DNA from: Microbacterium hydrocarbonoxydans
GTDB taxonomy: Bacteria > Actinomycetota > Actinomycetes > Actinomycetales > Microbacteriaceae
Reading direction: 5' to 3'
Length of the DNA stretch: 64,000 bases
Assembly: GCF_900105205.1 (NCBI RefSeq)
Contig: NZ_FNSQ01000005.1
Coordinates: forward strand, 1,798,001 to 1,862,000
The first letter of the stretch is position 1, and every line of letters begins with the position of its first letter. Of this stretch, positions 7,941 through 25,727 are shown one piece after another. The translations under genes were made by a program, and so were the position numbers. The notes beneath the pieces are model-generated. The model had not been told where the DNA came from, searched no databases, and saw nothing but the letters and a program-made list of their open reading frames with translations.

Positions 7941-7947
7941 AATTCTC

Positions 7948-10971: not shown

Positions 10972-10979
10972 CGACCGCG

Positions 10980-11009
10980 GTTACGGCCGGCCCCGAGTGT
11001 CGCGATAGT
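10980..11009 (+). promoter_or_regulatory. Flagellar sigma promoter of the flgB operon
   Basis: GTTAC (10980-10984), 16-nt spacer, CGCGATAGT (11001-11009). The same elements with the same spacing precede fliH, flbD and fliP. The last T of the -10 is 7 bases from the first leader hairpin. Confidence 0.8.
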
Positions 11010-11016
11010 GGGCACA

Positions 11017-11072
11017 GAGCACGGATCGCTCGACGATTGGCCAAGGATCGGCCTCTCCACCAACATCCGGAG
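11017..11072 (+). promoter_or_regulatory. Tandem ANGGA hairpin leader of flgB mRNA (probable CsrA target)
   Basis: Hairpin 1 (11017-11031) is GAGC/GCTC with loop ACGGATC; hairpin 2 (11039-11053) is GGCC/GGCC with loop AAGGATC; the SD GGAG lies at 11069-11072 and the GTG at 11080. Both loops expose ANGGA, the core of CsrA sites. The spacing is shared with the fliH and fliP leaders. Confidence 0.72.
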
Positions 11073-11079
11073 TGCCCCC

Positions 11080-11427
11080 GTGCTCGAATCCGTCACCTCC
11101 TCCGCGCTGATCAGCGCGCTCGACGGGCTGGCGCTGCGCCAGCGCTCGATCGCCGAGAACATCGCCAACGTCAACACCCCCGGCTACCACGCCCAGCGCG
11201 TGCAGTTCGAGGATGAGCTGCGCTCTGCCGTCGAGGCGGGCTCAGGCACCGTCTCGCCGACCGTCGAGAGGTCGCTGGAGCCGACCCGCCTGAACGGCAA
11301 CAATGTCAACCTCGACACCGAGACGCTGTCGAACATCGACACCGTGCTGCGGTTCCAGTTCGCCAGCCAGGCCATCGGCGGCCAGGCGGCATCGATCACC
11401 AAGGCGATCGGGCAGGCGTCCGCATGA
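11080..11427 (+). CDS. flgB: Flagellar proximal rod protein FlgB
   Basis: A 115-residue rod protein. It has the rod/hook N-terminal signature LRQRSIAENIANVNTPGYHA and a C-terminal helix with TVLRFQFASQA. It is exported and forms the proximal rod with FlgC and FliE. The GTG at 11080 is chosen because it lies 7 bases after GGAG and matches the start position in two homologous leaders; an upstream in-frame GTG at 11008 lies inside the promoter and cannot be used. Its stop overlaps flgC (ATGA). Confidence 0.93.
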   Translation: MLESVTSSALISALDGLALRQRSIAENIANVNTPGYHAQRVQFEDELRSAVEAGSGTVSPTVERSLEPTRLNGNNVNLDTETLSNIDTVLRFQFASQAIGGQAASITKAIGQASA

Positions 11428-11816
11428 CCTTCGACGCCATCGGCATCGCCGGCACCGGACTCACCGCCCACCGCAAGTGGCTGGACGCCCTCAGCGACAA
11501 CATCGCCAACGTCAACACCGCGACCCCTGCCGGTCAGGACGCCTTCCGCGAGAAGTTCGTCACCGTTCAGGCAGGCACGGACAGCCCCGGCGTGTACGTC
11601 GCGGGGGTCGTGGAATCCGAGGCCGAGGCGAAGCTCGTGTACGACCCCGAGCACCCCTACGCGAACGAGGACGGCTATGTGCAGTACCCCAACGTCGAGC
11701 TCGGCGACCAGATGAGCATGCTCATCCTCGCGCAGCGCGGATACGAGGCCAATGCCGCGGTCGTCGACCGCGCGAAGACGACCTACGAGGCCGCCCTGCA
11801 GATCGGTCGCGGCTGA
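11424..11816 (+). CDS. flgC: Flagellar proximal rod protein FlgC
   Basis: A 130-residue rod protein. The N-terminal motif is LDALSDNIANVNTATPAGQ and the C-terminal helix SMLILAQRGYEANAAVVDRAK is the usual FlgC end. Polymerises with FlgB and FliE above the MS ring. Both ends overlap neighbours (ATGA with flgB, TGATG with fliE), so the rod genes are translated together. Confidence 0.94.
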   Translation: MTFDAIGIAGTGLTAHRKWLDALSDNIANVNTATPAGQDAFREKFVTVQAGTDSPGVYVAGVVESEAEAKLVYDPEHPYANEDGYVQYPNVELGDQMSMLILAQRGYEANAAVVDRAKTTYEAALQIGRG

Positions 11817-12136
11817 TGAGCGGCGGGATCGAGGCGGTCTCCGCCGCAGGCATCACGCCGCTGTCGGCGCTCAGCTTCGAGACAGGACCGGATGCCGCGG
11901 GCGCCCCGACCTCGGCCGGCACCTTCGCCACCTCGCTCACCGGCGCGGTCGAGAGCCTGCAGCAGCTGCAGTCGACCTCGAACGAGCTCGCGGTGCAGGC
12001 CGTGACGGGAGATCTGCAGGACATCCATCAGGCGATGATCGCCTCGACACGTGCGTCGGTGACTCTCGACCTGGTGGTCGCCGTCCGTGACCGCAGCGTC
12101 TCGGCGTTCAACGAGATCATGAGGATGCAGGCCTGA
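11816..12136 (+). CDS. fliE: Flagellar hook-basal body complex protein FliE
   Basis: A 106-residue protein whose C-terminal half (LQSTSNELAVQAVTGDLQDI and LVVAVRDRSVSAFNEIMRMQ) is the FliE family core, the adaptor that links the FliF ring to the rod. The N-terminal 40 residues are poorly conserved. ATG overlaps the flgC stop; fliF starts 2 nt after its stop. Confidence 0.93.
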   Translation: MSGGIEAVSAAGITPLSALSFETGPDAAGAPTSAGTFATSLTGAVESLQQLQSTSNELAVQAVTGDLQDIHQAMIASTRASVTLDLVVAVRDRSVSAFNEIMRMQA

Positions 12137-12138
12137 CG

Positions 12139-13779
12139 ATGCCGAAGATGCTGACCACGTACTACGGCCGCGCCAAGCAGGTCGTCTCGGGCTTCACGCT
12201 CGCCCAGCGCACGATCGCCATCATCGGCGTCGCGCTGCTGGTGATGGGCGCCATCGCGCTGGGCTCCTGGCTGACCAAGCCGCAGATGAGTCCGCTCTTC
12301 ACCGGCCTGAGCGCGGGCGACGCCTCCGCGGTCGTCGAGCAGCTGAAGTCGGCGGGCGTCTCGTACGAGCTCACCGAGGGCGGCGCGACGATCCTCGTCC
12401 CGGACGACCAGGTCTACCCGCAGCGCCTCGCCGCGGCATCCGCCGGTCTGCCCGGCGACACCAGCGAGGGGTACACGCTCCTCGACAAGATGGGGGTGAC
12501 CGCGAGCGAGTTCCAGCAGTCGGTGACCTACAAGCGTGCGATCGAGGGTGAGCTCGCCGGCACCATCGGAGCGATGGAGGGGATATCCACGGCATCCGTG
12601 CAGCTGGCGATCCCGGAGGAGAGCGTGTTCGTCTCGGAGCAGCAGAGCCCGACGGCATCCGTGTTCGTGAAGACCCGCAACGGGGCGACACTGAGCGACG
12701 AGAAGATCGAGGCCATCGTGCATCTCACGAGCGCCTCGGTGCCGGGCATGACTCCCGAGGACGTCGCCGTCACCGATCAGGACGGCCGGGTGCTCTCCGC
12801 CGTCGGTACGGGTCTCACCGGGAACTCCTCGAAGCAGGCGACCGAGCACGAGGCCAAGGTGGCCGCGTCCGTGAGCGCCATGCTCGACACGATCGTCGGG
12901 CCTGGCAACGCCACCGTCACCGTGTCGGCCGACGTCGCGAACTCCACCTCTGAGCGGATGGAGGAGACGTACTCGGCGCCGGAGGGCGAGCTGAGCGCGT
13001 CGGAGCAGACCAAGACCGAGACCTACACCGGCGGTCAGGGCGGGGGGACCGGCGTGCTGGGCCCGGACAACATCGCGGTGCCGAACAACGGCTCGGGCAA
13101 CGGCGCCTACGAGTTCGAGGAGACCTCGCGCGACAACGCCGTCAACAAGTCGACCGAGAAGACCATCACCCCCGCGGGCGAGGTGACCAGGCAGACCGTC
13201 AGCATCGCGCTGAACCGGGGCACGGTCACCGGTGTGAGCGCCGCGCAGATCGAGTCGCTGGTCGCCTCAGCCGCGGGCATCGACGTCGAACGCGGCGACG
13301 AGATCGCCGTCGAGTTCGTCGAGTTCACCGAGGCCGGCGCGACCGCGGCGCAGACAGCGCTGCAGGCGGCGGAGGCCGAGCGCGACGCGCAGTTCCAACA
13401 GGAACTGCTGCGCTCGGCGATCATCGGCGGTTCGATCCTGCTCGCCGTCATCATCCTGGTCGTCTACCTCGTCGTGCGTCGCCGGATGAAGCGCCGCGTG
13501 ATGTACACCGAGGACGGCCCGATCGAGTACTTCGCCACGGTGACGGAGAGCGAGGAGGAGAAGCTCCGCTCGCTGCGCGGACTCAAGGATGCCGACGCCA
13601 TCATCGCGCCCGCGCCGACGAAGCTGCTGCCCTCGGCGTCGGTCGACCTCGACGATGAGCCGGAGCCGGACAAGGTGCTCGTCGAGCGCCGCCGCCGGGA
13701 GATCGACGACCTGGCGCGCCGTGAACCCGATGCCATCGCCAGCGCGCTGGCCGACCTGATGGACGAGGCGACCGTATGA
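12139..13779 (+). CDS. fliF: Flagellar MS-ring protein FliF
   Basis: A 546-residue inner-membrane ring protein. Transmembrane segment 1 is near residues 24-45 (TIAIIGVALLVMGAIALGSW), followed by the secretin/YscJ-like domain (LFTGLSAGDASAVVEQLKSA, EGELAGTIGAMEGISTASVQLAIPE split over about residues 135-155), and a C-terminal transmembrane segment (IIGGSILLAVIILVVYLVV). The cytoplasmic tail ending RREIDDLARREPDAIASALADL is the FliG-binding region. Its stop overlaps the fliG start by ATGA. Confidence 0.95.
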   Translation: MPKMLTTYYGRAKQVVSGFTLAQRTIAIIGVALLVMGAIALGSWLTKPQMSPLFTGLSAGDASAVVEQLKSAGVSYELTEGGATILVPDDQVYPQRLAAASAGLPGDTSEGYTLLDKMGVTASEFQQSVTYKRAIEGELAGTIGAMEGISTASVQLAIPEESVFVSEQQSPTASVFVKTRNGATLSDEKIEAIVHLTSASVPGMTPEDVAVTDQDGRVLSAVGTGLTGNSSKQATEHEAKVAASVSAMLDTIVGPGNATVTVSADVANSTSERMEETYSAPEGELSASEQTKTETYTGGQGGGTGVLGPDNIAVPNNGSGNGAYEFEETSRDNAVNKSTEKTITPAGEVTRQTVSIALNRGTVTGVSAAQIESLVASAAGIDVERGDEIAVEFVEFTEAGATAAQTALQAAEAERDAQFQQELLRSAIIGGSILLAVIILVVYLVVRRRMKRRVMYTEDGPIEYFATVTESEEEKLRSLRGLKDADAIIAPAPTKLLPSASVDLDDEPEPDKVLVERRRREIDDLARREPDAIASALADLMDEATV

Positions 13780-14855
13780 GCCTGCTGACGGATGTGCTGG
13801 ACGCCCAGGCCGACACTGTCGAGGTCTCCACGGAGACCGTGCCGGCGACGCCGCCGGCGGCGATGAGCGGTCTGCGCAAGGCCGCCATCGTCCTGATGAA
13901 CATGGATCGAGCGGCCAGCGCCGAGGTCCTGCGCCATCTCGGCGAGGAGCGCTCAGAGCTGCTGGCTGCCGAGCTCACCCAGCTCGGCGGTGTGGATGTC
14001 GCCTCGACCGCCCGCGCCCTCGCCGAGTTCCGTCGGATCGCGACCGGGGGCTCCGTGCCCTCTCGAGGCGGCCAGGAGCTCGCCACGGGTCTGCTGGAGA
14101 CGGCGTTCGGCCGCGAGAAGGCCGTGGGCATGGTGGGACGGGTGATGTCGCAGGGCACCGTCTCCTTCGACTTCCTCAACGCCGCCGACCCCGCCCAGCT
14201 CGCCACCATCCTCGAGGGGGAGCTGCCCACGACCGTCGCGGTGGTCCTCGCGAACCTGCGGGCGGATCGCGCGGCCGCAGTCCTCGCCGCGCTCCAGGAT
14301 CCGCTGCGCACCGACGTCGCCCAGGCGATCGCCACGATGGGCACCGCGACCCAGGAGGCGATCTCGATCGTCGCCGATTCGCTGCGCTCCCGCACGGGCG
14401 TCTTCGCGTTGCGAGACAACCATGAATCCATCGGGGGAGTGCAGCCGCTGGTCGAGATCATCAACCGGTCGGACACCGCTCTGGAGAAGTCGCTGCTGGC
14501 GAGCCTGGAGGGGCGCGATCTCGCGCTGGCGGAGGACATCCGCAGCCGGATGGTGACCTTCGCCGACATCGCCCGACTCGAGGACCGAGATGCGCAGCGC
14601 GTGCTGCGCGGCATCGACCTCCGGATGCTCGCGCTGGCGCTGAAGGGCGCGGACGAGCAGATCACCGAGAAGGTCAAGGGCAACATGACCGAGCGCAACC
14701 AGGAGAACCTCGCGGAGGAGACCAAGGTGCTGGGTCCGGTGCGCATGCGTCAGGTCGACGAGGCCCGCGCGGAGATCGTGCGCATCATCCGCGAGCTGGA
14801 GGCCGCCGAGGAGATCACGATCTCCCGCGAGGACGAGGACGAGCTCGTCGAGTGA
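13776..14855 (+). CDS. fliG: Flagellar motor switch protein FliG
   Basis: A 359-residue rotor protein joining the MS ring (FliF tail) to FliM and, through its C-terminal helix, facing the MotA stator. The N-terminal block LRKAAIVLMNMDRAASAEVLRHL, the middle EHPQ-like region, and the charged C-terminal torque helix with TFADIARLEDRDAQRVLRGI are present. The reading frame is complete. The gene is the last of the flgB operon; the next promoter begins 33 nt after its stop. Confidence 0.95.
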   Translation: MSLLTDVLDAQADTVEVSTETVPATPPAAMSGLRKAAIVLMNMDRAASAEVLRHLGEERSELLAAELTQLGGVDVASTARALAEFRRIATGGSVPSRGGQELATGLLETAFGREKAVGMVGRVMSQGTVSFDFLNAADPAQLATILEGELPTTVAVVLANLRADRAAAVLAALQDPLRTDVAQAIATMGTATQEAISIVADSLRSRTGVFALRDNHESIGGVQPLVEIINRSDTALEKSLLASLEGRDLALAEDIRSRMVTFADIARLEDRDAQRVLRGIDLRMLALALKGADEQITEKVKGNMTERNQENLAEETKVLGPVRMRQVDEARAEIVRIIRELEAAEEITISREDEDELVE

Positions 14856-14887
14856 CGAGCGCCGCGGTGCCTGATTCGGCCGCGCTG

Positions 14888-14917
14888 GTTACGGCCGCAC
14901 CCGACCGTCGCGATAGT
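14888..14917 (+). promoter_or_regulatory. Flagellar sigma promoter of the fliH operon
   Basis: GTTAC (14888-14892), 16-nt spacer, CGCGATAGT (14909-14917). It is followed, exactly as at flgB and fliP, by the first leader hairpin 8 bases downstream. Confidence 0.8.
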
Positions 14918-14924
14918 CGGGGAC

Positions 14925-14981
14925 GAGCACGGACAGCTCGCCCATCGGGCCACGGACAGGCCTCGTCTTCTACCTCCGAGG
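14925..14981 (+). promoter_or_regulatory. Tandem ANGGA hairpin leader of fliH mRNA (probable CsrA target)
   Basis: Hairpin 1 (14925-14939) GAGC/GCTC with loop ACGGACA; hairpin 2 (14948-14962) GGCC/GGCC with loop ACGGACA; SD GAGG at 14978-14981; GTG at 14990. The loop sequence changed from ACGGATC to ACGGACA in both hairpins while the stems were kept. Confidence 0.72.
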
Positions 14982-14989
14982 TGTCCGTC

Positions 14990-15652
14990 GTGTTCGAATC
15001 CGCCTTCACCCCCCTCGTGGTGCCGCGCGTGGGCGAGACGCCGATCGACGTGCGCAGCGAAGCGGACAGGGCTCGCACCCGGGGGTACGCCGACGGATTC
15101 GCTGAGGGCAGACGGGTCGCCCTCGACGAGGGCAGGATGCAGCAGGCGGCGCAGGAGCTGCGCGCCCAGGAGCTGCAGGAGTCATTCCTGCACGAGCGCG
15201 GCTCGGCGCTGCGTGCTCTGGCGTCCGCACAGACCGCACTCGAGCAGCGGATCGACGCGCTCAGCGCGCTCAGCGCGGATCGGATCGAGCAGTTCGCCGT
15301 GCAGCTCGCCGAGTCGATCCTGGGGGCCGAGCTCTCGGACCCCGCTCGTTCGGCTGCTCATGCGCTGCGGCGCGCACTCGCGCAGATGCCCGCCGACCGA
15401 TGGACCAAGGTCGCGTTCAGCGTGCGCGACGCGGAGGTCCTCGGGGGCGACCTCGGTGCGATCGAGCAGCTGCACGGGGTGGAGTTCACGGCGTCGGACG
15501 ACGTCGACCGGGGTGGCGCGATCGTCGAGATCGAGGATGGCGCCGTCGACACGCGCATCGACCAGGCGATGGCCCGCGCATCCGCCGCGTTGCGTGGCGA
15601 GGCCGACCTCGGCGATCCCGCCGACGCACAGATCACCGAGGTGCTCGGATGA
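14990..15652 (+). CDS. fliH: Flagellar assembly protein FliH
   Basis: A 220-residue regulator of the export ATPase. It carries the glycine- and alanine-rich helical part (GYADGFAEGRRVALDEGR) and the C-terminal FliH/YscL domain (QFAVQLAESILGAELSDPA, VEFTASDDVDRGGAIVEIED). It binds FliI and FliN in the cytoplasm. The GTG at 14990 is picked by alignment with the flgB and fliP leaders; a GTG at 14981 lies inside the SD. Its stop overlaps fliI (ATGA). Confidence 0.9.
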   Translation: MFESAFTPLVVPRVGETPIDVRSEADRARTRGYADGFAEGRRVALDEGRMQQAAQELRAQELQESFLHERGSALRALASAQTALEQRIDALSALSADRIEQFAVQLAESILGAELSDPARSAAHALRRALAQMPADRWTKVAFSVRDAEVLGGDLGAIEQLHGVEFTASDDVDRGGAIVEIEDGAVDTRIDQAMARASAALRGEADLGDPADAQITEVLG

Positions 15653-16986
15653 CGGCAGCGACAGCGGTGACGACGTCGTGGCGGCGGGCCCTCGATGCCG
15701 CACGCCCCGAGCGCACGGGCACGGTCAAGGCTGTTCGCGGTCTGGGAATCGAAGTGCTCGGCCTCGATGCGGCGGTCGGTGACCGGGTACGCATCGACGC
15801 CGCAAAGGGCCGCACGGTCGACGCGGAGATCGTCGCGGTCGACGGTGCGTCCGCCCGGTGCATGCCGCTCGGTCGGCTCGACGGGATCACCGCCAGAGCG
15901 CGCGTGCGGCACGGCGGAGCACCGCTGCAGGTGCCGATCGGTCCCGCGCTCCTCGGTCGGGTGCTGGACGGGCTCGGCCGGCCTATCGACGGCAAGGGGC
16001 CGCTCGGCGCGAACACGGCCTTCGTCTCGCTGGACCACGATGCGCCGAGCATCATGGACCGCCGCCGCATCGACGAGCAGCTCGGTCTCGGGGTCCGGGT
16101 GCTCGACACGATGACGCCCGTCGGCACGGGCCAGCGTCTCGGCCTCTTCGCCGGCTCCGGCGTCGGCAAGTCCTCGCTCATGTCGATGATCGCCCGCGGG
16201 TCGGCGGCCGACGTCACCGTGATCGCCCTCGTGGGGGAGCGCGGCCGCGAGGTGCGGGAGTTCCTCGAGGACGACCTCGGTCCCGAGGGCCTCGCGCGCT
16301 CCGTGGTGGTCGTCGCCACCTCGGATCAGCCGGCGATGGCACGTCTGCGTTCTGCGTTCGTCGCCACGCGGATCGCCGAGGGGTTCAGAGACGACGGGCG
16401 CGACGTCGTCCTGATGATGGACTCGCTGACCCGCGTGGCCATGGCGCAGCGCGAGATCGGCCTGAGTGCCGGTGAGCCGCCGGCGACCCGAGGGTACCCG
16501 CCGTCGACGTTCTCCGTCCTCGCTCGACTGCTCGAGCGGGCGGGCACCGGGACCACCGGGTCGATCACCGGTCTCTACACGGTGCTGGTCGACGGAGACG
16601 ACCACAACGAGCCGATCGCCGACGCTGCGCGCGGCATCCTCGACGGCCACGTCGTGCTCGACCGCGCGCTGGCGATCCGCGGTCATTTCCCGGCCGTCGA
16701 CGTCCTCGGCTCCGTGTCCCGCGTCGTGTCGAAGATCACCACGCCGGAGCAGCGCGGGCACGCGGTGACGCTGCGCAGCGTCCTGGCGGCCCGTCGCAGT
16801 GCGAACGACCTGATCGACATCGGCGCCTACCGCCACGGGGCCAACCCGCTGGTCGACGCCGCGCTCGCTCATGACGAGAGCATCTCGCGGTTCCTCACTC
16901 AGCGGATGGACGATCTCACGGCATCCGACGACTCCTGGCAGCAGCTCGCCGCCCTCATCACCGACTTCGGAGGACTCACCCCATGA
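15649..16986 (+). CDS. fliI: Flagellum-specific export ATPase FliI
   Basis: A 445-residue F1-beta-like ATPase that unloads chaperones and substrates at the export gate. The Walker A motif is GSGVGKSS at about residues 169-176, the Walker B is VVLMMDSLTR, and the family block ERGREVREFLE follows the P-loop. GEPPATRGYPPSTFSVLARL is the conserved type III ATPase segment. The ATG at 15649 overlaps the fliH stop, and fliJ starts inside its stop (ATGA). Confidence 0.96.
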   Translation: MTAATAVTTSWRRALDAARPERTGTVKAVRGLGIEVLGLDAAVGDRVRIDAAKGRTVDAEIVAVDGASARCMPLGRLDGITARARVRHGGAPLQVPIGPALLGRVLDGLGRPIDGKGPLGANTAFVSLDHDAPSIMDRRRIDEQLGLGVRVLDTMTPVGTGQRLGLFAGSGVGKSSLMSMIARGSAADVTVIALVGERGREVREFLEDDLGPEGLARSVVVVATSDQPAMARLRSAFVATRIAEGFRDDGRDVVLMMDSLTRVAMAQREIGLSAGEPPATRGYPPSTFSVLARLLERAGTGTTGSITGLYTVLVDGDDHNEPIADAARGILDGHVVLDRALAIRGHFPAVDVLGSVSRVVSKITTPEQRGHAVTLRSVLAARRSANDLIDIGAYRHGANPLVDAALAHDESISRFLTQRMDDLTASDDSWQQLAALITDFGGLTP

Positions 16987-17408
16987 CCTTCCCCTTGGCT
17001 GGCCTGCTGCGTGTGCGCGGTGCCCAGGAACGCGTCGCCGCAGAGCAGCTGTCGCGGGCGAGTGCAGAGCGCGTCGACGCCGAGACGGCGACGCAGCACG
17101 CCGTCAGCAGCCTCGCCGACATCAGCGCGCAGGTCGACGACCCGAGCACGCTCATGGCGATGGCGGCCGCGAGGGCTGCCGGCCGCAGCACGCTCAGCGA
17201 TCTGCAGGCGCTCGTGGAGATGAGACGCAGAAGCGAGTCGGAGGCGAAATCGGCCCATGTGGACGCTCGCCGCGAGCTCAAGGGGCTGGAGCGGCTGGAG
17301 TCGACGCACCGCGCGGAGGCGGCGAAGTCGGAGCTGGCGGCGGAGCAGAGCGCCCTCGACGAGATCGCCGTGGTGCGCAGCTCTCGCCGCGAGGGGAGTG
17401 CAGCATGA
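16983..17408 (+). CDS. fliJ: Flagellar FliJ-like export protein
   Basis: A 141-residue, almost entirely helical coiled-coil protein, beginning MTFPLAGLLRVRGAQERVAAEQ. FliJ is the gamma-subunit-like stalk of the FliI hexamer. Sequence identity between FliJ proteins is low, so the call leans on size, coiled coil and position between fliI and fliK. It overlaps both neighbours by ATGA. Confidence 0.82.
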   Translation: MTFPLAGLLRVRGAQERVAAEQLSRASAERVDAETATQHAVSSLADISAQVDDPSTLMAMAAARAAGRSTLSDLQALVEMRRRSESEAKSAHVDARRELKGLERLESTHRAEAAKSELAAEQSALDEIAVVRSSRREGSAA

Positions 17409-17758
17409 GCGGTCTCGATGCGGTGATCACACGCGTCGATGCGATCGAGAGTCAGATCGTGTCCCTTGACCCTGCGGCCCGTGCAGCCGACGCAGCGGCC
17501 GTCGAGGCGACGCCGGAGACGGCGCAGGCGAATGCGACGGCGTTCGCCGAGGTGCTCGACGCGGCGAAGTCGGCGTCCGGCGTCGAGACCACGGACCCTG
17601 CCGCGGCATCCGGCGCCGTCGGAGAGACAGGCACGGGCGGGACGGATGCCGAGCTGCTCTCCGCCTTGCAGACGCTCTTCTCCGCCGGCTCGGCAGGCTC
17701 GAGCCCTGTCGGCGGATCGACATCCTCGATGCAGAAGCTCATCGAGATGATCGGATGA
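17405..17758 (+). CDS. Hypothetical protein between fliJ and fliK
   Basis: A 117-residue protein that begins MSGLDAVITRVDAIESQIVSLDP and has an ATAFAEVLDAAKSA segment, then a low-complexity Ala/Gly/Ser tail ending SSMQKLIEMIG. From general knowledge, flagellar loci of related actinobacteria often have here a protein with a similar N-terminus followed by a lytic transglycosylase or NlpC/P60 domain; no such catalytic domain is present. It may be a shortened scaffold form. Translation is coupled to both neighbours (ATGA at each end). Confidence 0.6.
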   Translation: MSGLDAVITRVDAIESQIVSLDPAARAADAAAVEATPETAQANATAFAEVLDAAKSASGVETTDPAAASGAVGETGTGGTDAELLSALQTLFSAGSAGSSPVGGSTSSMQKLIEMIG

Positions 17759-19122: not shown

Positions 19123-19134
19123 GAGGACGATCAC

Positions 19135-19611
19135 ATGACCGTCGACGCCGTGAGCGCACCCAGCTCGATCTACACCGGAAGCACCAGCGACCCGGCCGCC
19201 CGCAAGCAGGTGCTCGATGGCGAGGTGTTCCTGAAGCTCCTCGTCACGCAGCTGACCCACCAGGATCCCTCGAGCCCGATGGACACCAACGAGATGATCT
19301 CGCAGACGACCCAGCTCGCGATGATGGAGCAGCTGACGACCCTCGCCGACAACGGCGCCGAGGCCTTCGCCCTCAATATGCGCCAGGCGGCGAGCGCCCT
19401 CATCGGCCAGGAGGCGAGCTACAAGGACGCCGACGGCAAGACGGTGTCCGGCGTCGTCACGAAGGTGTCGTTCGACGGGCCGATCCCGCAGGTGACGATC
19501 GGCCAGAAGACCATCGCACTGGATGCCATCACCGGCCTCGCCTCCCCGACCACCCCGCGGTTCCCCAGACCGCAGCCTGACCCCCGTTCCACCCAGGAAG
19601 AGAGAATCCCC
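19135..19611 (+). CDS. flgD: Flagellar hook-capping protein FlgD (reading frame runs into flgE)
   Basis: About 150 residues match FlgD, the scaffold on which hook subunits polymerise: LDGEVFLKLLVTQLTHQDPSSPMDT and the following NEMISQTTQLAMMEQL. No stop codon ends it: the frame continues without break through the flgE start at 19612. If one C is added to the C4 run at 19553-19556, the protein instead ends TTPAVPQTAA at TGA 19578-19580, a normal short FlgD C-terminus before the flgE ribosome site. I therefore think a 1-nt deletion or sequencing error is present; a real FlgD-FlgE fusion is the alternative. Confidence 0.85.
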
Positions 19612-20778
19612 ATGCTTCGCTCGCTCTACTCCGGCATCTCCGGACTCCGCTCGCACCAGACCATGCTCGATGTCACGGGCAACAACATCGCCAACGTCAA
19701 CACGGCCGGCTTCAAGGGCTCGTCCGTGCTGTTCCAGGACTCTCTGTCGCAGCTCATCGGCAATCCTGGCATCCCCGACGACGAGGTCGGCGGCCGCAAC
19801 CCCGCCCAGGTCGGTCTCGGCGTGCAGGTCGCCGGCGTGCGCACCAACTTCGCACAGGGCTCGGCGCAGGCGACCGGCCGCGGTGGGGATCTGATGATCT
19901 CCGGCGACGGCTTCTTCGCGGTCCGCTCCGGCGGCGAGACCCTGTACACCCGTGCCGGAGGGTTCTCGTTCGACCCCACCGGCAAGATGGTCACCGCCGA
20001 CGGCGCGGTCGTCCAGGGCTGGTCGGCGCAGAACGGCGTGGTCAACACCGGGCAGGCGACGGGCAACATCGTGCTGCCGCTCGATGCCGTCTCGCCGGCG
20101 AAGGCGACCACGACGGCGACCGTCACCGGCAACCTGCCGTCGACGGCGGCGACCGGAGACGAGCTGGTCCGCGATGTGACCGTGTACGACGCGCAGGGCA
20201 CCCCCTCGACGCTCAGCCTCACGTTCACGAAGACCGCGACCGGGTGGAACGTCACGGAGCCGGTCAGCGGCGCGACCGGCGCTCTCGCGTTCACCGACGG
20301 CAAGCAGGCCGGCGCTGGGCTCACCCTCACGGCCGGCACGGTCAGCGTCGACCTCGGCTCCGTCACCGGCTACGCCAACATGTCGACCGTGGCTGTGTCG
20401 GAACAGAACGGCTCGGCGGCCGGGTCGCTGAAGTCGTACAGCATCACGGGCGACGGGTCGATCGTCGGCACGTTCAGCAACGGCGCGACCCAGACGCTCG
20501 GCAAGATCGCGATGGCGACCTTCGCCAACCCCGAAGGTCTCGAGAAGGCGGGCGGCACGGCCTACCGCGTGTCGGTGAACTCCGGCGCCGCTCGTATGGG
20601 AGAGCCGGGACAGGCCGGATTCGGCAACCTCGTCTCCGGTGCTCTGGAGATGAGCAACGTCGACCTCTCGCAGGAGTTCACCAATCTGATCGTCGCGCAG
20701 CGCGGCTTCCAGGCGAACGCCCGCATCATCACCACCAGCGACGAGGTGCTGCAGGAGCTGACCCAGCTGAAGCGCTGA
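19612..20778 (+). CDS. flgE: Flagellar hook protein FlgE
   Basis: A 388-residue hook subunit. N-terminal MLRSLYSGISGLRSHQTMLD with NNIANVNTAGFKGS and C-terminal SNVDLSQEFTNLIVAQRGFQ are the diagnostic ends; DLMISGDGFFAV is the FlgE/FlgF/FlgG middle motif. It has its own ATG with GGAAGAGAG 9 bases upstream, so it can be made even though the flgD frame is open through it (see flgD). It is the only FlgE/F/G-type protein in the window. A palindrome follows its stop by 37 nt. Confidence 0.93.
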   Translation: MLRSLYSGISGLRSHQTMLDVTGNNIANVNTAGFKGSSVLFQDSLSQLIGNPGIPDDEVGGRNPAQVGLGVQVAGVRTNFAQGSAQATGRGGDLMISGDGFFAVRSGGETLYTRAGGFSFDPTGKMVTADGAVVQGWSAQNGVVNTGQATGNIVLPLDAVSPAKATTTATVTGNLPSTAATGDELVRDVTVYDAQGTPSTLSLTFTKTATGWNVTEPVSGATGALAFTDGKQAGAGLTLTAGTVSVDLGSVTGYANMSTVAVSEQNGSAAGSLKSYSITGDGSIVGTFSNGATQTLGKIAMATFANPEGLEKAGGTAYRVSVNSGAARMGEPGQAGFGNLVSGALEMSNVDLSQEFTNLIVAQRGFQANARIITTSDEVLQELTQLKR

Positions 20779-20815
20779 CGTCTGATCCCGCTGCTGGCCT
20801 GATCCTGCGAATCGC

Positions 20816-20848
20816 GGCGCCCGTCTCTGGTTACCAGGGACGGGCGCC
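20816..20848 (+). repeat. 33-nt palindrome after flgE overlapping the next promoter
   Basis: GGCGCCCGTCTCTGG pairs with CCAGGGACGGGCGCC (15 bp, one G-U) around TTA. It could end the flgE message as a hairpin, but no T tract follows. Its centre is the GTTAC -35 element of the flbD promoter. Confidence 0.7.
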
Positions 20849-20859
20849 GTCGCGATAGT
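20830..20859 (+). promoter_or_regulatory. Flagellar sigma promoter of the flbD-motAB-fliMNO operon
   Basis: GTTAC (20830-20834), 16-nt spacer, CGCGATAGT (20851-20859). Unlike flgB, fliH and fliP, the leader here (20860-20900) has no ANGGA hairpin; the SD is CGGAG. Confidence 0.8.
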
Positions 20860-20900
20860 CGGGGCAGACTTCCCCCTCTCGTCCGACCCGGAGAACCCCG

Positions 20901-21116
20901 ATGATCATCGTGACCCGCCTCGACCGCACCCGGTTCGCGGTGAACCCCGATCTGATCGAGCGGATCCACGCGTCGCCGGACACCACCCTGCACATGGTCG
21001 ACGGGCATGTCTACGTGATCGAGGAGTCGCTCGACGGTGTCATCGACCTCGTCGTCGCCTACCGGGCCCGTGTCCTCGACGCAGCGCACGCACTCACGAC
21101 GCAGACGGGAGCCTGA
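20901..21116 (+). CDS. flbD: Flagellar FlbD-family protein
   Basis: A 71-residue protein beginning MIIVTRLDRTRFAVNPDLIERIHASPDT, typical of the small FlbD/SwrD family found next to motA or in the hook operon of Gram-positive bacteria. In Bacillus the homologue SwrD raises motor torque. That fits its place directly before motA here (2-nt gap). First gene of the operon; ATG after CGGAGAACCCCG. Confidence 0.88.
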   Translation: MIIVTRLDRTRFAVNPDLIERIHASPDTTLHMVDGHVYVIEESLDGVIDLVVAYRARVLDAAHALTTQTGA

Positions 21117-21118
21117 GC

Positions 21119-21916
21119 GTGGATCCCGCATTCGTCATCGGCGTCGTCCTCGCGTTCGGCGCCCTCGTCGCCATGATCACGATGGAGGGTGCGAGCTTCG
21201 AGGCGCTGCTCATCCCCGCACCGATGATCCTCGTGCTCGGCTCGACGATCGGCGTGGGGATCGCGAGCCACACCCTGCGTGACACGATCCAGGCGGTGAA
21301 GAGTCTCGGGCGCATGGTCAGAGGACCCCAGAGTACTCCGGAGGCGGTGATCCCGTTCCTCGTCGGCTACGCGGAGAAGGCGCGCGGCGAGGGGCTCCTG
21401 GCGCTCGAGCAGGAGCTCGACGACGCACCGGACCCGTTCACCAGGAAGGCCCTGCAGGCTCTCGCCGACGGCACGGATGCCGAGGACCTGCGGACGGTGA
21501 TGGACGACGAGATCGTCGCCACGTCGTCGCGCAACCGCGTGGCCTCCAAGTTCTTCGGATCGCTGGGCGGCTACGCGCCCACGATCGGCATCGTCGGCAC
21601 GGTCGTGTCGCTGACGCACGTGCTGGAGAAGCTGGACGAACCGGATCACCTCGGACCCATGATCGCCGCGGCCTTCGTCGCGACACTCTGGGGGCTGCTC
21701 TCGGCCAACTTCATCTGGAATCCCATCGCCGGCCGGCTCGGCCGCATCGCCGCTGTGGAGACCGAGCGTATGACGCTCGTCTCCGAGGGCATGCTCGCGA
21801 TCCAGGCCGGCAGCGCGCCGCACCTGCTGCAGGAGCGGCTGGAGGCGATGTCCGGCGCGGCGCCCGCGGCGAAGAAGCAGAAGAAGGATGCAGAGCCGGC
21901 AGAGGGCGCACGGTGA
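21119..21916 (+). CDS. motA: Flagellar stator protein MotA
   Basis: A 265-residue membrane protein of the proton-conducting stator. Four hydrophobic segments are visible (starting near residues 2, 26, 144 and 178), with the cytoplasmic loop AEKARGEGLLALEQELDDAP that carries the charged residues facing FliG. The segment GSLGGYAPTIGIVGTVVSLTHVL is the conserved TM3 and PTIGxxGTV motif. GTG start at 21119; its stop overlaps motB by GTGA. Confidence 0.94.
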   Translation: MDPAFVIGVVLAFGALVAMITMEGASFEALLIPAPMILVLGSTIGVGIASHTLRDTIQAVKSLGRMVRGPQSTPEAVIPFLVGYAEKARGEGLLALEQELDDAPDPFTRKALQALADGTDAEDLRTVMDDEIVATSSRNRVASKFFGSLGGYAPTIGIVGTVVSLTHVLEKLDEPDHLGPMIAAAFVATLWGLLSANFIWNPIAGRLGRIAAVETERMTLVSEGMLAIQAGSAPHLLQERLEAMSGAAPAAKKQKKDAEPAEGAR

Positions 21917-22722
21917 GCACCGCCCGTCGAGCGCGAGGTCGTGGTCACGAGGAGGACTCGCACGACGAGCCGGACGAGCGCTGGGCCGTCTCCTACGCCG
22001 ACATGGTCACCGTGCTGATGTGCCTGTTCATCGTGCTGTTCGCCGTCTCGAACGTCGACAAGACGAAATTCGAGATGCTGGCCAACAGCCTCGCCACCGG
22101 ATTCGGGCAGGAGAGCACCGAGGGTGGCGCCGATACGGCGGAGGGAATGATCGTGCCCCCGGAGCTGCAGGACGACGACGGCGTGGTCGACCTGGCCGCT
22201 CGCGCGCAGGCCGAATACGAGTCGCTGGAGGAGCTGCGCGATCGGATGAGCGCCGCTCTCGCCACACAAGGCCTGCAGAACACGGTCGAGTTCGTGATCG
22301 ACGACCGCGGACTGCAGGTCGGCCTCGTGGGTGCCGAGACGTTCTTCGCCGACAACAGCACCGATCTCTCGCGCAAGGCGGATGCGGTGCTCGACGCGAT
22401 CGGCGACGTGCTGGTCACGGTCGACAACCAGGTGAGCGTCGAGGGGCATGCCGATCATCGCCATTCCGCCGCCCCGTTCCCGACGAATTGGGAGCTGTCG
22501 GGCGGTCGCGCCACCCAGGTCGCCCGCTTCCTCGTCGAGCATGAGGGCGTCGGCGGGCCGCGGGTCAAGGCCACGGCCTTCTCCGACACCCGACCGATCG
22601 TGCGCGGCGACAGTCCTCAGGCGCTCGCCAGCAACAGGCGTGTCGACATCGTCGTCGAGTCCACCGAAGAAGAGCAGGTGCGCGCGCTGATCCCCGCACT
22701 CGCCGCCGCAGCGAAGAACTGA
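21913..22722 (+). CDS. motB: Flagellar stator protein MotB
   Basis: A 269-residue stator protein with one N-terminal transmembrane segment. SYADMVTVLMCLFIVLFAVS holds the proton-carrying Asp30. The C-terminal OmpA/MotB peptidoglycan-binding domain has VSVEGHADHRHS, NWELSGGRATQVARFL and DTRPIVRGDSPQALASNRRV. The charged tail is long. The presence of Asp at position 30 and the usual residues around it point to H+ rather than Na+; this is weak evidence. Translation is coupled to motA. Confidence 0.93.
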   Translation: MSTARRARGRGHEEDSHDEPDERWAVSYADMVTVLMCLFIVLFAVSNVDKTKFEMLANSLATGFGQESTEGGADTAEGMIVPPELQDDDGVVDLAARAQAEYESLEELRDRMSAALATQGLQNTVEFVIDDRGLQVGLVGAETFFADNSTDLSRKADAVLDAIGDVLVTVDNQVSVEGHADHRHSAAPFPTNWELSGGRATQVARFLVEHEGVGGPRVKATAFSDTRPIVRGDSPQALASNRRVDIVVESTEEEQVRALIPALAAAAKN

Positions 22723-22755
22723 GTGCCCGTGACCACGATCGTCGAGGAGAACACC

Positions 22756-23649
22756 ATGACCGCAGCCGCCGTGCTCGAGGACTCCGCTGTTCGGTACGCC
22801 GAGTACGACTTCAGTCGCCCGGCGCAGCTCGGGCGGGAGAGCACGAGGCACCTGGAGGCGGCGTTCGAGTCGTTCGCCCGCCTGTGGTCGTCCCAGCTCA
22901 CCGCGAAGGTCAGGGTGCGAGCGCACCTGACCCTCGAGAGCGTCGACCTCGTCTCATACGAGGAGTACTCCGCGACCCTGCCGGGCACCACGGCGATGGT
23001 GGCGGGGTCGTTCGCCGACCGCGAGGAGCCGTGCGTCGTGCAGTTCGGGCTCGACAGCGCGCTGCTCTGGGTCGTGCAGATGATGGGCGGGCGCAGCACG
23101 TCGCTGCCCGCGGCGCGCACGTTCACGCCGATCGAGCTCGCCCTCGTGCGCAACCTCATGGAGGGCACCTTCGAGCACCTGCACGCGAGCCTCGACGCGC
23201 TGCTGCCCGGAGCTCCGCGATTCAGCGCGGTGCACTACAACCCCCAGTACATGCAGGTGATCGCGGCGACGACCGCCGTGATCGTCGCCCGGTACACGAT
23301 GCGGCTGGGGGACTCCGAGACGGTCGCGACCGTCATGCTGCCCGCCTCGACGGTGGTCGATCGACTCGCCGCGACCGGATCGGACGCGGGCGCGGCACAC
23401 ACCGCGGAGCAGACGCTGGAACAGGTGCGGTCGACACCGCTGGAGCTCACGCTGCGGCTCGCGCCGCTCACGATCGGCACCGGGGAGATCCTCGATCTGG
23501 CCCCGGGGGACCTGCTGCGTCTGCCGCATCCGGAGACCAGACCATACGAGCTCGTGGCAGGCCGGACCCAGATCGGCCTCGCCACCCCGGGCAGCAGGGG
23601 CTCGCGCCTCACCTGCAAGATCACGACCACCCCTGAGGAGACCCACTGA
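22756..23649 (+). CDS. fliM: Flagellar motor switch protein FliM
   Basis: About 297 residues. The middle CheC-like domain and the C-terminal SpoA domain (ILDLAPGDLLRLPHPETRPYELVAG) are clear, as is LVRNLMEGTFEHLHASLDAL. I prefer the ATG at 22756 because GAGGAG lies 6 bases upstream; a GTG at 22723 adds 11 residues. With either start the N-terminal EIDxLL helix that binds phospho-CheY is missing, although the switch domains are intact. Forms the C-ring with FliG and FliN. Its stop overlaps fliN (TGATG). Confidence 0.9.
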   Translation: MTAAAVLEDSAVRYAEYDFSRPAQLGRESTRHLEAAFESFARLWSSQLTAKVRVRAHLTLESVDLVSYEEYSATLPGTTAMVAGSFADREEPCVVQFGLDSALLWVVQMMGGRSTSLPAARTFTPIELALVRNLMEGTFEHLHASLDALLPGAPRFSAVHYNPQYMQVIAATTAVIVARYTMRLGDSETVATVMLPASTVVDRLAATGSDAGAAHTAEQTLEQVRSTPLELTLRLAPLTIGTGEILDLAPGDLLRLPHPETRPYELVAGRTQIGLATPGSRGSRLTCKITTTPEETH

Positions 23650-24305
23650 TGAGCACCTTCCACGAGACCGCGATCGCCGCGGCGATCGCCGGCAAGCTGC
23701 CGTTCGGCTACCCCGTCATCCCGGCCCCTTCCACCGACCCCGGCGCCGCGGGGGAGGCGGTGGTGGTCACCTTCACCGGGAGCCCTGGAGCGCGGATCGC
23801 GATCCAGGTCGCCGACCCGTCGCAGCTGGAGGACGGCTCGCCGACGGCGGACCTGGCCGACCGGCTGCATCCGATCTTCGAGGCGGCGGTCGCCGTCCTC
23901 GGCACCGGTGCCCTGAGCGCGGGCGAGCTCGCACCCGCGACAGAGGTGTTCACGGCCGCGGGCACCCAGGTCTTCGACATGGTGGACGCCGACGGCCGTG
24001 TCGTCGCCAGGGCCGCCGTGCGCATCGACGGCGCGCGCAGCAGCGCCGCCCCCGGACCCCAGCGGCTGAGTCGGATCGCGGGCGTCGAGATGGAGCTCGT
24101 GGTCGAGATCGGCCGCACCCGGATGCCGGTGCGCGACGTGCTCTCCCTCGAACCCGGTCGCGTGGTCGAGCTGGACCGCGCCGCCGGCAGCCCCGCCGAC
24201 ATCAAGCTCAACGGTCGCCTGATCGGACACGGCACCGTCGTCGTGGCCGAGGGCGACTTCGCGATCCGCGTCGAGCGGATCCTCGACGGCGCAGAGAACG
24301 TCTGA
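23649..24305 (+). CDS. fliN: Flagellar motor switch protein FliN/FliY
   Basis: A 218-residue protein. The last 75 residues form a SpoA domain (VEMELVVEIGRTRMPVRDVL, LEPGRVVELDRAAGSPADIK, LIGHGTVVVAEGDFAIRVER), the part shared with E. coli FliN. The first 130 residues form an extra domain with an LPFGYPVIP block; it looks like the FliY-type extension but I do not see clear CheC phosphatase residues. It forms the lower C-ring and docks FliH. Confidence 0.9.
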   Translation: MSTFHETAIAAAIAGKLPFGYPVIPAPSTDPGAAGEAVVVTFTGSPGARIAIQVADPSQLEDGSPTADLADRLHPIFEAAVAVLGTGALSAGELAPATEVFTAAGTQVFDMVDADGRVVARAAVRIDGARSSAAPGPQRLSRIAGVEMELVVEIGRTRMPVRDVLSLEPGRVVELDRAAGSPADIKLNGRLIGHGTVVVAEGDFAIRVERILDGAENV

Positions 24306-24307
24306 CG

Positions 24308-24745
24308 ATGGACGACCTCCTCGTCGCCCTCCGCGCGATCGTCGCCCTGGCGGCCGTGCTCGGGCTGCTGTACTTCCTCAGCCGGCGGCTGCAGAAGTCG
24401 CAGGCGAAGGGATCCAGTCCACTGGCGGGTCTCCTGCCGAAGCGGTGGACGCGACTGGGCGAGCTCGTCCCCTCGCGCCCTGCACCGGGGCCCAGAGCGC
24501 CCAGAACGCGGCCGGAGAAGATCACGGTGGTCGCCCGCTCGGGCATCGGCGGCAAGGCCCAGCTGGTCGTGGCCGAGTTCGGAGGCATCCGCTATGTGCT
24601 CGGCGTGACCGAGAGCGGTATCAGTGTCGTCGACACGCAGGAAGCGCCTGTCGTGGAGGAGGAGCTGCCGGCGGACGAGTCTCCGGCGGTGAGCCCGCAG
24701 CCTCCGGACGACATCGTCGATCGCGCGCTGCGCTCGGTCGCCTGA
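24308..24745 (+). CDS. fliO: Flagellar biosynthesis protein FliO
   Basis: A 145-residue protein with one N-terminal transmembrane helix (residues about 8-27, LRAIVALAAVLGLLYFLSRR), a basic linker, and the small FliO domain KITVVARSGIGGKAQLVVAEF and GIRYVLGVTESGISVV. FliO aids assembly of the FliP ring. It ends the flbD operon; the fliP promoter starts 29 nt after its stop. Confidence 0.88.
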   Translation: MDDLLVALRAIVALAAVLGLLYFLSRRLQKSQAKGSSPLAGLLPKRWTRLGELVPSRPAPGPRAPRTRPEKITVVARSGIGGKAQLVVAEFGGIRYVLGVTESGISVVDTQEAPVVEEELPADESPAVSPQPPDDIVDRALRSVA

Positions 24746-24774
24746 CCGCGCCCGACGCGATCAGACCGCCGGCG

Positions 24775-24804
24775 GTTACGCGAGGGCCGTCCCGTCGCGA
24801 TAGT
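24775..24804 (+). promoter_or_regulatory. Flagellar sigma promoter of the fliP operon
   Basis: GTTAC (24775-24779), 16-nt spacer, CGCGATAGT (24796-24804). The first leader hairpin begins 8 bases after the -10, as at flgB and fliH. Confidence 0.8.
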
Positions 24805-24811
24805 CGTCTGC

Positions 24812-24868
24812 GAGCACGGATCGCTCACCCCCCTGGCTACGGATCGGCCACGTCACCCATCCTCGGAG
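24812..24868 (+). promoter_or_regulatory. Tandem ANGGA hairpin leader of fliP mRNA (probable CsrA target)
   Basis: Hairpin 1 (24812-24826) GAGC/GCTC, loop ACGGATC; hairpin 2 (24835-24849) GGCT/GGCC with a G-U pair, loop ACGGATC, extendable to TGGCT/GGCCA; SD GGAG at 24865-24868, GTG at 24876. Loop-to-loop distance is 23 nt and loop-to-start 37 nt. Confidence 0.72.
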
Positions 24869-24875
24869 TGCCGCC

Positions 24876-25727
24876 GTGCCCGTATCCGCCGCCGCTGCGT
24901 CGCCCCTGCGCGTGACGCACCCGCGTCGGCGTGCCTGGCTCCTCCTCGCCGCCGCTCTGGGAGCCGCAGCCGTGCTGGTGGTGGTCGACGCCCACGGCGC
25001 GCACGCCGCAGCGGCCCATACCGCGCTGCCGGCGATCCTCCCCGCCGAGATCGGTGACGGCGAGGGCGTGACGATCAACGGCATCAACGGCGCCCCGTCC
25101 GACAGCATCATGACGCTGCTGGGCATCACGATCCTCAGCGTCGCCCCGGCTCTGCTGCTGATGATGTCGAGCTTCACCAAGATCTTCGTCGTGCTCGCGC
25201 TGACCCGCAACGCGCTCTCGCTGCCCTCGATCCCGCCGAATCAGGTGCTCGCGGGTCTCAGCCTGTTCCTCACCCTGTTCATCATGTGGCCGGTCCTGAC
25301 GGACATCAACGCCGTCGCGGTCGCCCCGTTCACCGACGGTCAGATCGACTTCGGTCGAGCCTTCGAGCTCGCTCAGGAGCCGCTGCGCGAGTGGATGCTC
25401 TCCTACACCCGCGAAGAGGACATCGCCCTCATGCATCGAGCGGCCCAGATGGAGAACCCGGCGGATGCCGCCGACATCCCGCTGCAGACGCTGGTGCCCG
25501 CCTTCATGATCAGCGAGCTCCGCGCGGCCTTCCTGATCGGATTCATCATCTTCGTCCCCTTCCTCGTGATCGACCTGGTGGTCGCCAGCGCGCTGATGTC
25601 GATGGGAATGATGATGCTCCCGCCGGTGATGATCTCGCTGCCGTTCAAGATCCTCCTGTTCCTGCTCATCGACGGGTGGGGCATGGTCATCACCGCGCTG
25701 GTCCAGTCCTACAACGGCGGCGGCTGA
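24876..25727 (+). CDS. fliP: Flagellar export gate protein FliP
   Basis: A 283-residue membrane protein and main subunit of the export gate. It has a long N-terminus with a signal-like hydrophobic stretch (AWLLLAAALGAAAVLVVVDA), then the FliP core: ILSVAPALLLMMSSFTKIFV, NQVLAGLSLFLTLFIMWPVL, LQTLVPAFMISELRAAFLIG and the final LPFKILLFLLIDGWGMVITAL. FliP is one of the few flagellar proteins made with a cleaved signal peptide in many bacteria. The GTG is chosen by its match to the flgB and fliH starts. Its stop overlaps fliQ (TGATG). Confidence 0.94.
   Translation: MPVSAAAASPLRVTHPRRRAWLLLAAALGAAAVLVVVDAHGAHAAAAHTALPAILPAEIGDGEGVTINGINGAPSDSIMTLLGITILSVAPALLLMMSSFTKIFVVLALTRNALSLPSIPPNQVLAGLSLFLTLFIMWPVLTDINAVAVAPFTDGQIDFGRAFELAQEPLREWMLSYTREEDIALMHRAAQMENPADAADIPLQTLVPAFMISELRAAFLIGFIIFVPFLVIDLVVASALMSMGMMMLPPVMISLPFKILLFLLIDGWGMVITALVQSYNGGG

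Follow-up and report, generated by a model that had tools for sequence, protein, structure and literature searches.

A two-hairpin leader at flagellar operons of Microbacterium hydrocarbonoxydans and its relatives, a predicted target of CsrA

The flagellar locus of Microbacterium hydrocarbonoxydans raises the question of why three of its operons, headed by flgB, fliH and fliP, begin with nearly the same leader, in which a promoter is followed by two small hairpins carrying A(N)GGA in their loops, and of which factor might read such a leader. The stretch of DNA analyzed here, hereafter the window, comprises 64,000 nucleotides (nt) of contig NZ_FNSQ01000005.1 (positions 1,798,001 to 1,862,000); all coordinates are those of the window unless a locus is named, and all genes, promoters and leader elements of the flagellar locus placed below lie on its plus strand. 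A preliminary description of this DNA had proposed that the three leaders belong to an extended regulon of the RNA-binding protein CsrA. The comparative analysis presented here points to a widely conserved element with flgB as its principal site, and makes control by CsrA a probable, though graded, conclusion.

A leader repeated at flgB, fliH and fliP

In each of the three leaders a sigma-28-like promoter of the form GTTAC-N16-CGCGATAGT (10980..11009 at flgB, 14888..14917 at fliH and 24775..24804 at fliP) is followed, after 7 nt in every case, by a first hairpin, which reads GAGC-ACGGATC-GCTC at flgB (11017..11031) and fliP (24812..24826) and GAGC-ACGGACA-GCTC at fliH (14925..14939). The second hairpin is GGCC-AAGGATC-GGCC at flgB (11039..11053), GGCC-ACGGACA-GGCC at fliH (14948..14962) and, with a U-G inner pair, GGCT-ACGGATC-GGCC at fliP (24835..24849). 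All six loops are 7 nt long and every one contains A(N)GGA; the loop-to-loop spacing is 22 nt at flgB and 23 nt at fliH and fliP, and in none of the three leaders does A(N)GGA lie over the Shine-Dalgarno sequence. Both the repeated block running from promoter to start codon and the presence of ANGGA in all six loops can be read directly, as had been described; the distance of 37-38 nt given for the final interval is also right, provided that it is measured from the start of loop 2 to the GTG.

The three genes all start with GTG. Profile searches assign flgB (11080..11427) to Pfam Flg_bb_rod (E 2.6e-5), a general rod-protein family; the name FlgB, which we consider probable, comes from the preliminary description and from gene order, this being the first gene of a rod/MS-ring operon, before flgC and fliF, that leads to fliF and fliG. 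Among the matches listed, seven FlgB relatives in named genomes exceed 90% identity (91-95%), six of them in Microbacterium and one in Microbacteriaceae. The fliP product (24876..25727) matches TIGR01103 above its cut-off (E 1.9e-77), and the best FliH models match the product of fliH (14990..15652) at E 1.5e-10, below their curated cut-offs.

A covariance model of the hairpins alone, built from these three leaders with the promoter excluded (model R1), was run against the 3.59-Mb genome and found only the flgB, fliH and fliP leaders at E <1e-8, with the next best match at E 0.27. Since strong matches are thus limited genome-wide to these three leaders, the element cannot be ascribed to chance. 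Rfam release 15 gave no match at its gathering threshold at any of the three, and a scan of region 10900-11200, which covers the flgB leader, gave none at E up to 1.

Conservation at flgB and spread to other operons

The cleanest view of conservation comes from 80 loci in named genomes that were recovered through FlgB protein patterns alone and scanned with a generic detector, which calls two hairpins with stems of at least 4 bp and loops of 5-8 nt containing GGA, 15-35 nt apart and within 150 nt upstream. Double hairpins were detected in 78 of 79 distinct flgB leaders, against a mean of 1.3 over 20 shuffles and against 3, 1 and 2 passes for control segments of the same 79 loci (loci without room for such a segment being scored as none). 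In these 78 leaders the five-mer of loop 1 is A(N)GGA in 77 and that of loop 2 in 76, with C, G or T at N in both loops and A only once, in loop 2. The set leans to close relatives, because it takes the best 80 of at least 558 confirmed stretches, but its genera include Microbacterium, Leifsonia, Arthrobacter, Curtobacterium, Cryobacterium, Sinomonas, Cellulomonas, Nesterenkonia and Intrasporangium. The sole leader to fail (L254:1351-1500) belongs to a flgB contig labelled as an Acidobacteria metagenome-assembled genome, in which an actinobacterial-like FlgB (60%) is preceded by no double hairpin.

A larger mixed set, in which many leaders had been fetched via model matches, gave a similar picture. 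After leaving out leaders with <110 nt upstream, FlgB scores <40 bits or identical last 60 nt, the detector was positive in 105 of 115 distinct flgB leaders (dinucleotide-shuffle mean 2.05), and when GGA was replaced in the search by any of the 63 alternative trinucleotides the count stayed at 7 or below, except for CGG and GAT, both of which share bases with the GGA of these loops. The spacing from GGA to GGA is 21-24 nt in 86 of the 105 leaders within a full range of 18-31 nt, a few of the pairs being evidently mis-registered (three have the second GGA 12-16 nt from the start codon). Applied to the regions upstream of other flagellar genes, the same detector was positive at none of 97 flgC, 96 fliF, 59 motA, 20 fliH, 16 flgE and 6 fliI genes, at one of 27 fliD, at 3 of 30 fliP and at 13 of 58 flbD genes.

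Genome surveys with covariance models connect the element to flagellated genomes. Model R1 had strong matches (E <1e-3) in 82 of 299 genomes of the family; csrA is present in 92 of these 299, and fliP in the same 92 plus one (G264). A strong match was obtained in 81 of the 92 genomes with csrA and fliP, and in one of the 206 with neither. For six of the 11 csrA- and fliP-bearing genomes without a strong match (G016, G040, G052, G066, G072 and G236; loci L042, L052, L054, L062, L067 and L068) the flgB leader could be inspected, and all six carry a diverged element; of the other five, the contig of G177 ends before flgB and four were not fetched. The fliP of G264 (L055) is divergent, with 44% identity in its best segment, and lies on a 3.8-kb contig; no csrA was found in that genome. 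A second model built from 53 elements (R2; strong matches at E <1e-4) matched 42 of 198 genomes of the order, all 42 with csrA or fliP. The set sampled across the class comprised 197 genomes, with csrA in 25, fliP in 24 and both in 22.

Outside the family, flgB leaders again present two GGA hairpins, with changed stems. The second stem becomes GCGCC/GGCGC in family f16, CGCC/GGCG in f35 and, closing an A(N)GGA loop of six nt, GCCG/CGGC in f45, and the first becomes GAGCG/CGCTC with a six-nt loop in f8 and GGCGC/GCGCC around AGGAA at locus L133. Loops of six nt are found at L052, in several other families and at fliC. Counter-cases do exist: L127 (f2) has no element, L154 and L155 (f15) are doubtful, L150 (f44) shows one clear hairpin, and at L142 the gene is probably misassigned. 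The preliminary description had stated that its proposal would fall if related genomes kept neither ANGGA in the loops nor the pairing of the stems, or lacked either one; such loss was sought, and the flgB element proved to be widely kept. Its claim that stems stay paired where bases change also holds, in that pairing is kept with changed stems in relatives at flgB. On these comparative grounds we regard flgB as the ancestral, class-wide site of the two-hairpin element.

The copies at fliH and fliP have a much narrower distribution. In 107 genomes of the genus the element was found (E up to 1e-4) in 22, with three copies in 6 genomes, two in 2 (G696 and G747) and one in 14. The three-copy genomes have matches at flgB, at +3.9 kb and at +13.0 to 14.7 kb, matching fliH and fliP, and G696 and G747 combine the flgB copy with one at the fliP distance. 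With tblastn, fliH or fliP was identified downstream of the extra copies that were fetched (five were not). Hairpin 2 is GGCT/GGCC in all fliP copies that were read, six from relatives and that of the window alike, and this suggests one origin. We thus view the fliH and fliP copies as later recruits that are confined to part of the genus. The proposal that basal-body and export operons join the targets of CsrA is therefore supported as a prediction, but with the correction that flgB is a class-wide site and that the other two are local additions.

Further copies were seen elsewhere. Two genomes of family f10 have one before an unlinked gene of the NlpC/P60 family (L097:1501-1600 and L100:1450-1550, minus strand), where it is accompanied by a sigma-28-like promoter, and genomes of g36 and g70 in family f1 have a second copy inside the cluster. 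An nlpC gene is listed within the flgB operon of Actinosynnema (PMC9019756; here and below, statements taken from cited papers refer to the accessible parts of those sources). Taken with fliH and fliP, these copies indicate that the element spreads to flagellar genes when they acquire a promoter of their own.

Structure, position and candidate readers

Evidence for pairing comes from an alignment of 53 elements (A3), from which duplicates were left out; the coordinates of L025, L027 and L046 were adjusted manually, and L042, L052 and L062 are poorly registered. Two-sided changes occupy 18 cells against 9.4 in shuffled alignments (5 of 500 shuffles reach 18), and the covariation score of the named structure is 0.083 against 0.061 (2 of 500 reach it). 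Within the genus, hairpin 2 takes the forms GGCC/GGCC, wobble GGCC/GGCT and AGCC/GGCT (L180 and L184). Inverted repeats also pair as half-sites in DNA, and an element that adjoins a promoter at a fixed distance might be an operator for a flagellar transcription factor rather than a pair of RNA hairpins. We consider this highly improbable: the conserved part is the asymmetric loop, hairpins 1 and 2 do not have the same half-sites and these vary from family to family as well, loop size varies between 7 and 6 nt, and the G-U form is intermediate between GGCC/GGCC and AGCC/GGCT. Moreover, PhoP does bind near flgB in Actinosynnema, but its box lies at -141 to -134 (PMC9019756).

The position of the element is informative about its possible function. 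The CGA of the -10 box lies 20 nt from the first GGA in 51 of 87 leaders (standard deviation 1.64), whereas the distance from the second GGA to the start codon ranges from 30 to 92 nt (median 40, standard deviation 12.97), leaders without a called start codon being left out of these counts. The two-hairpin element thus takes its place from the promoter side. Transcription from sigma-28 promoters starts about 7 nt after the -10 box and, if it does so here, hairpin 1 stands at, or very close to, the 5' end of the mRNA. Because the hairpins are fixed to the promoter and not to the start codon, a block of the ribosome site like that of Bacillus hag is not the obvious model.

What remains invariant in both loops is A(N)GGA with its second position free, and it is this feature that suggests CsrA as the reader. 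The loop recognized by RsmE is ANGGAN (PMC7652899), and A(N)GGA is present in 324 of 328 CsrA targets (PMC4894983). The spacing of the two sites, 22-23 nt in the window and 18-31 nt in the 105 leaders, can be set beside a quoted optimum of 18 nt (PMC4894983). Both csrA and fliW, as the preliminary description had stated, are present in the locus and are of the right families. From these sequence features we judge that CsrA very probably binds these leaders and, with somewhat less assurance, that it exerts post-transcriptional control through the hairpins.

Several observations weigh against an RNA element read by CsrA. The percentage of paired positions is 86.2 against 85.7 in column shuffles, 113 of 500 of which reach it, no better than shuffles because the stems hardly vary; and when the structure is slid by +3, covariation rises to 0.097, above 0.083, with 41.7% paired. 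Folding z-scores relative to shuffles are 0.17 at flgB, where the best fold shifts hairpin 2, 0.92 at fliP and -1.79 at fliH, and once the beginning of the coding sequence is added, the best fold no longer contains the hairpins of flgB and fliH. The folding energies being unimpressive, the case for RNA rests on the comparative evidence. The flgB transcription start is predicted from the promoter only. Loops depart from A(N)GGA in L062 (AGGATC) and in L133 and L104 (AGGAA). When leaders were fetched around fliP, 41 of 51 passed strict detection, a few of these 51 windows having also been placed to include a model match; the 10 misses are all outside the family, and near misses with bulged or 3-bp stems can be seen by eye at L130, L131, L136, L137 and L140. 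One genome with neither csrA nor fliP (G203) has a strong match (E 8.4e-4). CsrA/RsmE, in turn, prefers six-nt loops (44 of 55 RNAs in systematic evolution of ligands by exponential enrichment) and extra loop nucleotides can lower affinity (PMC7652899), while those of the window have 7 nt. Finally, csrA accompanies fliP in 92 of 93 genomes of the family, 65 of 69 of the order and 22 of 24 of the class, so that co-occurrence cannot single out CsrA, flagella hardly ever coming without csrA in these samples. That A(N)GGA is read by some other factor linked to the flagellum is less likely. Flagellated genomes without csrA would have served as a negative control, but none was usable: the six with fliP and no csrA match (G329, G419, G451, G473, G506 and G522) all come as fragmented assemblies of 80 to 1060 contigs, several of which are incomplete. 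In two of them, G419 and G473, the element is still present.

If CsrA is the reader, the direction of its effect has to be weighed. The hairpin pair lies just after the presumed transcription start and not over the ribosome site, and for this reason we favor protection or activation at the 5' end, although we would put activation or stabilization, an outcome argued by analogy, at no better than an even chance. In such a mechanism one CsrA dimer would bridge the A(N)GGA hairpin pair in the flgB leader, and here also in those of fliH and fliP, with FliW, itself held by cytoplasmic flagellin, setting the amount of free CsrA. CsrA at the 5' end would shield the mRNA from decay, as on E. coli flhDC, and free CsrA would raise expression of basal-body and export genes while repressing flagellin via the two-site fliC leader. 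It might be speculated further, and quite tentatively, that in flagellated Actinomycetes, where FlgM is reported missing and where, in the present genome, basal-body, export, motor and flagellin operons have one promoter type, RNA decides which genes are early and which late: CsrA in its free form would stabilize flgB-class mRNAs through the double hairpin anchored at their 5' end and repress flagellin through its Shine-Dalgarno site, FliW released on flagellin export would flip both together, and the double hairpin would act as a class-wide, portable tag for early operons.

The same binding could have the opposite result, with CsrA blocking ribosome loading or hastening decay of the flgB operon mRNA and basal body, export and flagellin all falling together. 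Repression is the commonest CsrA outcome (PMC7652899), CsrA also lowers the Bacillus hag transcript (PMC6529632), and the last 20 nt before the start codon contain GGA in 52 of 90 leaders and A(N)GGA in 15 of 90. Yet the second GGA lies 30-92 nt (median 40) before the start codon, no conserved A(N)GGA falls on the Shine-Dalgarno sequence, the position is fixed to the promoter, and the same genomes have a clear Shine-Dalgarno-overlapping design at fliC; repression of flgB is a possibility to be kept in mind, if not the one we would choose. An unlikely variant would have the abundant flgB-operon leaders serve mainly as sponges that titrate CsrA from flagellin mRNA, as the flaA leader of Campylobacter titrates CsrA (PMC4894983). 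Some members of the genus have three copies, and the Rfam scan, confined to the window, matched no CsrB-type small RNA there, but action in cis is suggested by the constant distance from the promoter and by the copies on other flagellar mRNAs, and FliW, by family, already has the role of antagonist.

Two further explanations dispense with CsrA. Plain 5'-terminal stabilizing hairpins would suit the position just after the presumed transcription start, but would leave unexplained the two-site spacing and the maintenance of A(N)GGA, with N free, in both loops, and we deem them very unlikely. The other is that the loops pair with flgB codons 3-5 (GAATCCGT) and so mask the start, an idea consistent with the complementarity, with predicted folds and with codon bias at the site. 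As a main function this was rejected and has scarcely any probability left, because the element is also present ahead of flgB genes with a residue other than serine at codon 4, and in leaders where loop position 2 is G or A, which are unable to pair. The codon bias is an observation in its own right (window 11080-11097 and relatives): Glu-3 is GAA in 27 of 27 leaders and in 34 of 36 of the named set, against a baseline of 0.16 in other flagellar genes, and Ser-4 is TCC in 58 of 77 and in 58 of 79 of the named set, against 0.29. A general early-codon bias is a possible source of the preference at codons 3 and 4. Kissing of the two loops through their GATC was dropped, since many variant loop pairs are, by eye, not complementary.

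The flagellin leader, the locus and known systems

The promoter and the two-hairpin element do not always travel together. The pattern GTTAC-N14-18-CGATAGT occurs five times in the genome, always in the flagellar locus, at flgB, fliH, flbD-motA, fliP and flgN; the two-hairpin element is absent after the promoters of flbD-motA (20830..20859) and flgN-flgK (30351..30379), a correction to the proposed extended regulon, as two flagellar operons with the same promoter are without it. The flagellin gene fliC has a near form of the promoter, with CGCGAATGT (7860..7888), so that flagellin and basal-body operons have a common promoter type, flagellin's being one of six promoters of the single type surveyed. 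Its leader holds a hairpin with a six-nt loop, GGCCC-ACGGAT-GGGCC (7899..7914), as predicted CsrA site 1, and ACGGAGGAA (7934..7942) as both the Shine-Dalgarno sequence and predicted site 2 (ACGGA), ahead of the ATG at 7948. In relatives the hairpin together with a Shine-Dalgarno A(N)GGA is found in 13 of 15 fliC leaders, and the latter in 14 of 15 (L038, L041, L054 and L070, where the fliC leader was not clear or not complete, being left out). We predict from this arrangement that the flagellin leader is a classical two-site CsrA target, one that the preliminary description had not mentioned.

Leaders of flbD-motA in several other genera (L043:13616-13660, L044:13647-13690, L143-L149 and others) have a GGA hairpin and often A(N)GGA near the start codon. 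The two GGA hairpins detected at 13 of 58 flbD genes are missing from the flbD leader of the window; in those other genera the leader is likely a further CsrA target.

The window product of csrA (82 aa, 30066..30314) matches its family above the cut-off (E 6.3e-23) and aligns to RsmE 2jpp at E 1.5e-13; both the MLxLTR strand and the HR..EI segment are conserved. We take 2jpp to be an RNA-bound entry and these two segments to be the RNA-contact parts. Just 5' of the csrA ATG, at 30048-30059, GCC-ATGGAA-GGC forms a hairpin whose stem has 3 bp and whose loop of six nt contains A(N)GGA, and autoregulation of csrA is possible. The product of fliW (130 aa, 33233..33625) matches PF02623 above the cut-off (E 4.3e-18) and scores below the cut-offs of the NCBIfam FliW models; a search of its sequence against PDB gave no match. 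These two genes and fliC share one locus, where a sigma-70-family factor, assigned by profile match (6963..7832), is from its position likely the flagellar sigma of FliA/WhiG type. NCBIfam and Pfam matches in the locus comprise FliF, FliG, FliH, FliP, CsrA, FliW, FlgN, FlbD, FliD, FliS, flagellin, MotA, FlgK, FlhA (FHIPEP) and this sigma factor. The FlgM model PF04316, which obtained matches in E. coli, B. subtilis and T. maritima, had none in the whole genome at E up to 0.1, although FlgM is short and a divergent one could escape. The Rfam scan also placed a bacterial class A RNase P RNA at 45230-45586.

A 2023 survey of actinobacterial flagella reports that the classes without FlgFG, Actinomycetia included, lack FlgM and, in its accessible text, mentions CsrA and FliW nowhere outside a methods list (PMC10746217). 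No report of a CsrA element in the flgB leader of actinobacteria was found in the literature searched, most subscription journals being outside its reach. The basal-body operon would be headed by a cis-regulatory RNA that is conserved widely and has no match in Rfam 15, and the CsrA-FliW circuit would likely extend beyond flagellin in a phylum where little such work was found. An RNA-level switch of this kind could supply the order of flagellar gene expression where FlgM is missing and flagellin shares the basal-body promoter type, and the copies at fliH, fliP and the f10 NlpC/P60 gene may be natural cases of operons joining a post-transcriptional regulon.

Comparison with known systems places the flgB leader among several precedents. 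The preliminary description spoke of a switch known in Bacillus for flagellin only; elsewhere CsrA is known to make contacts beyond flagellin, in Campylobacter with many flagellar mRNAs (PMC4894983) and in E. coli with flhDC (PMC7652899). In Kineococcus radiotolerans csrA also lies with flagellar genes, in a motility island, and the flagellin leader was proposed in 2008 as a predicted CsrA target; no proposal of a flgB element was found in the accessible part of that account (PMC2587704). Bacillus subtilis resembles the present case in having csrA and fliW in the flagellar locus, and its hag leader has the hairpin and Shine-Dalgarno pair that the fliC leader of the window matches (PMC6529632, PMC7652899); unlike hag, the flgB, fliH and fliP leaders place no A(N)GGA over the Shine-Dalgarno sequence. 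E. coli flhDC is a master regulator, whereas the short element here precedes structural operons; in both, flagellar genes are preceded by two CsrA sites close to the 5' end of the mRNA, the sites and the 5' end being predicted ones in our case, and on flhDC CsrA blocks RNase E (PMC7652899). The flaA leader of Campylobacter jejuni, likewise a short 5' untranslated region of a flagellar gene, also has two A(N)GGA hairpins side by side, with sites 21 nt apart (21-24 nt in most leaders here), compensatory changes and FliW as antagonist (PMC4894983). The flgB mRNA of C. jejuni was enriched only 1.6-fold (PMC4894983), and flaA encodes flagellin, with site 2 over the ribosome site, while the corresponding leader in Microbacterium heads a basal-body operon and avoids the Shine-Dalgarno sequence.

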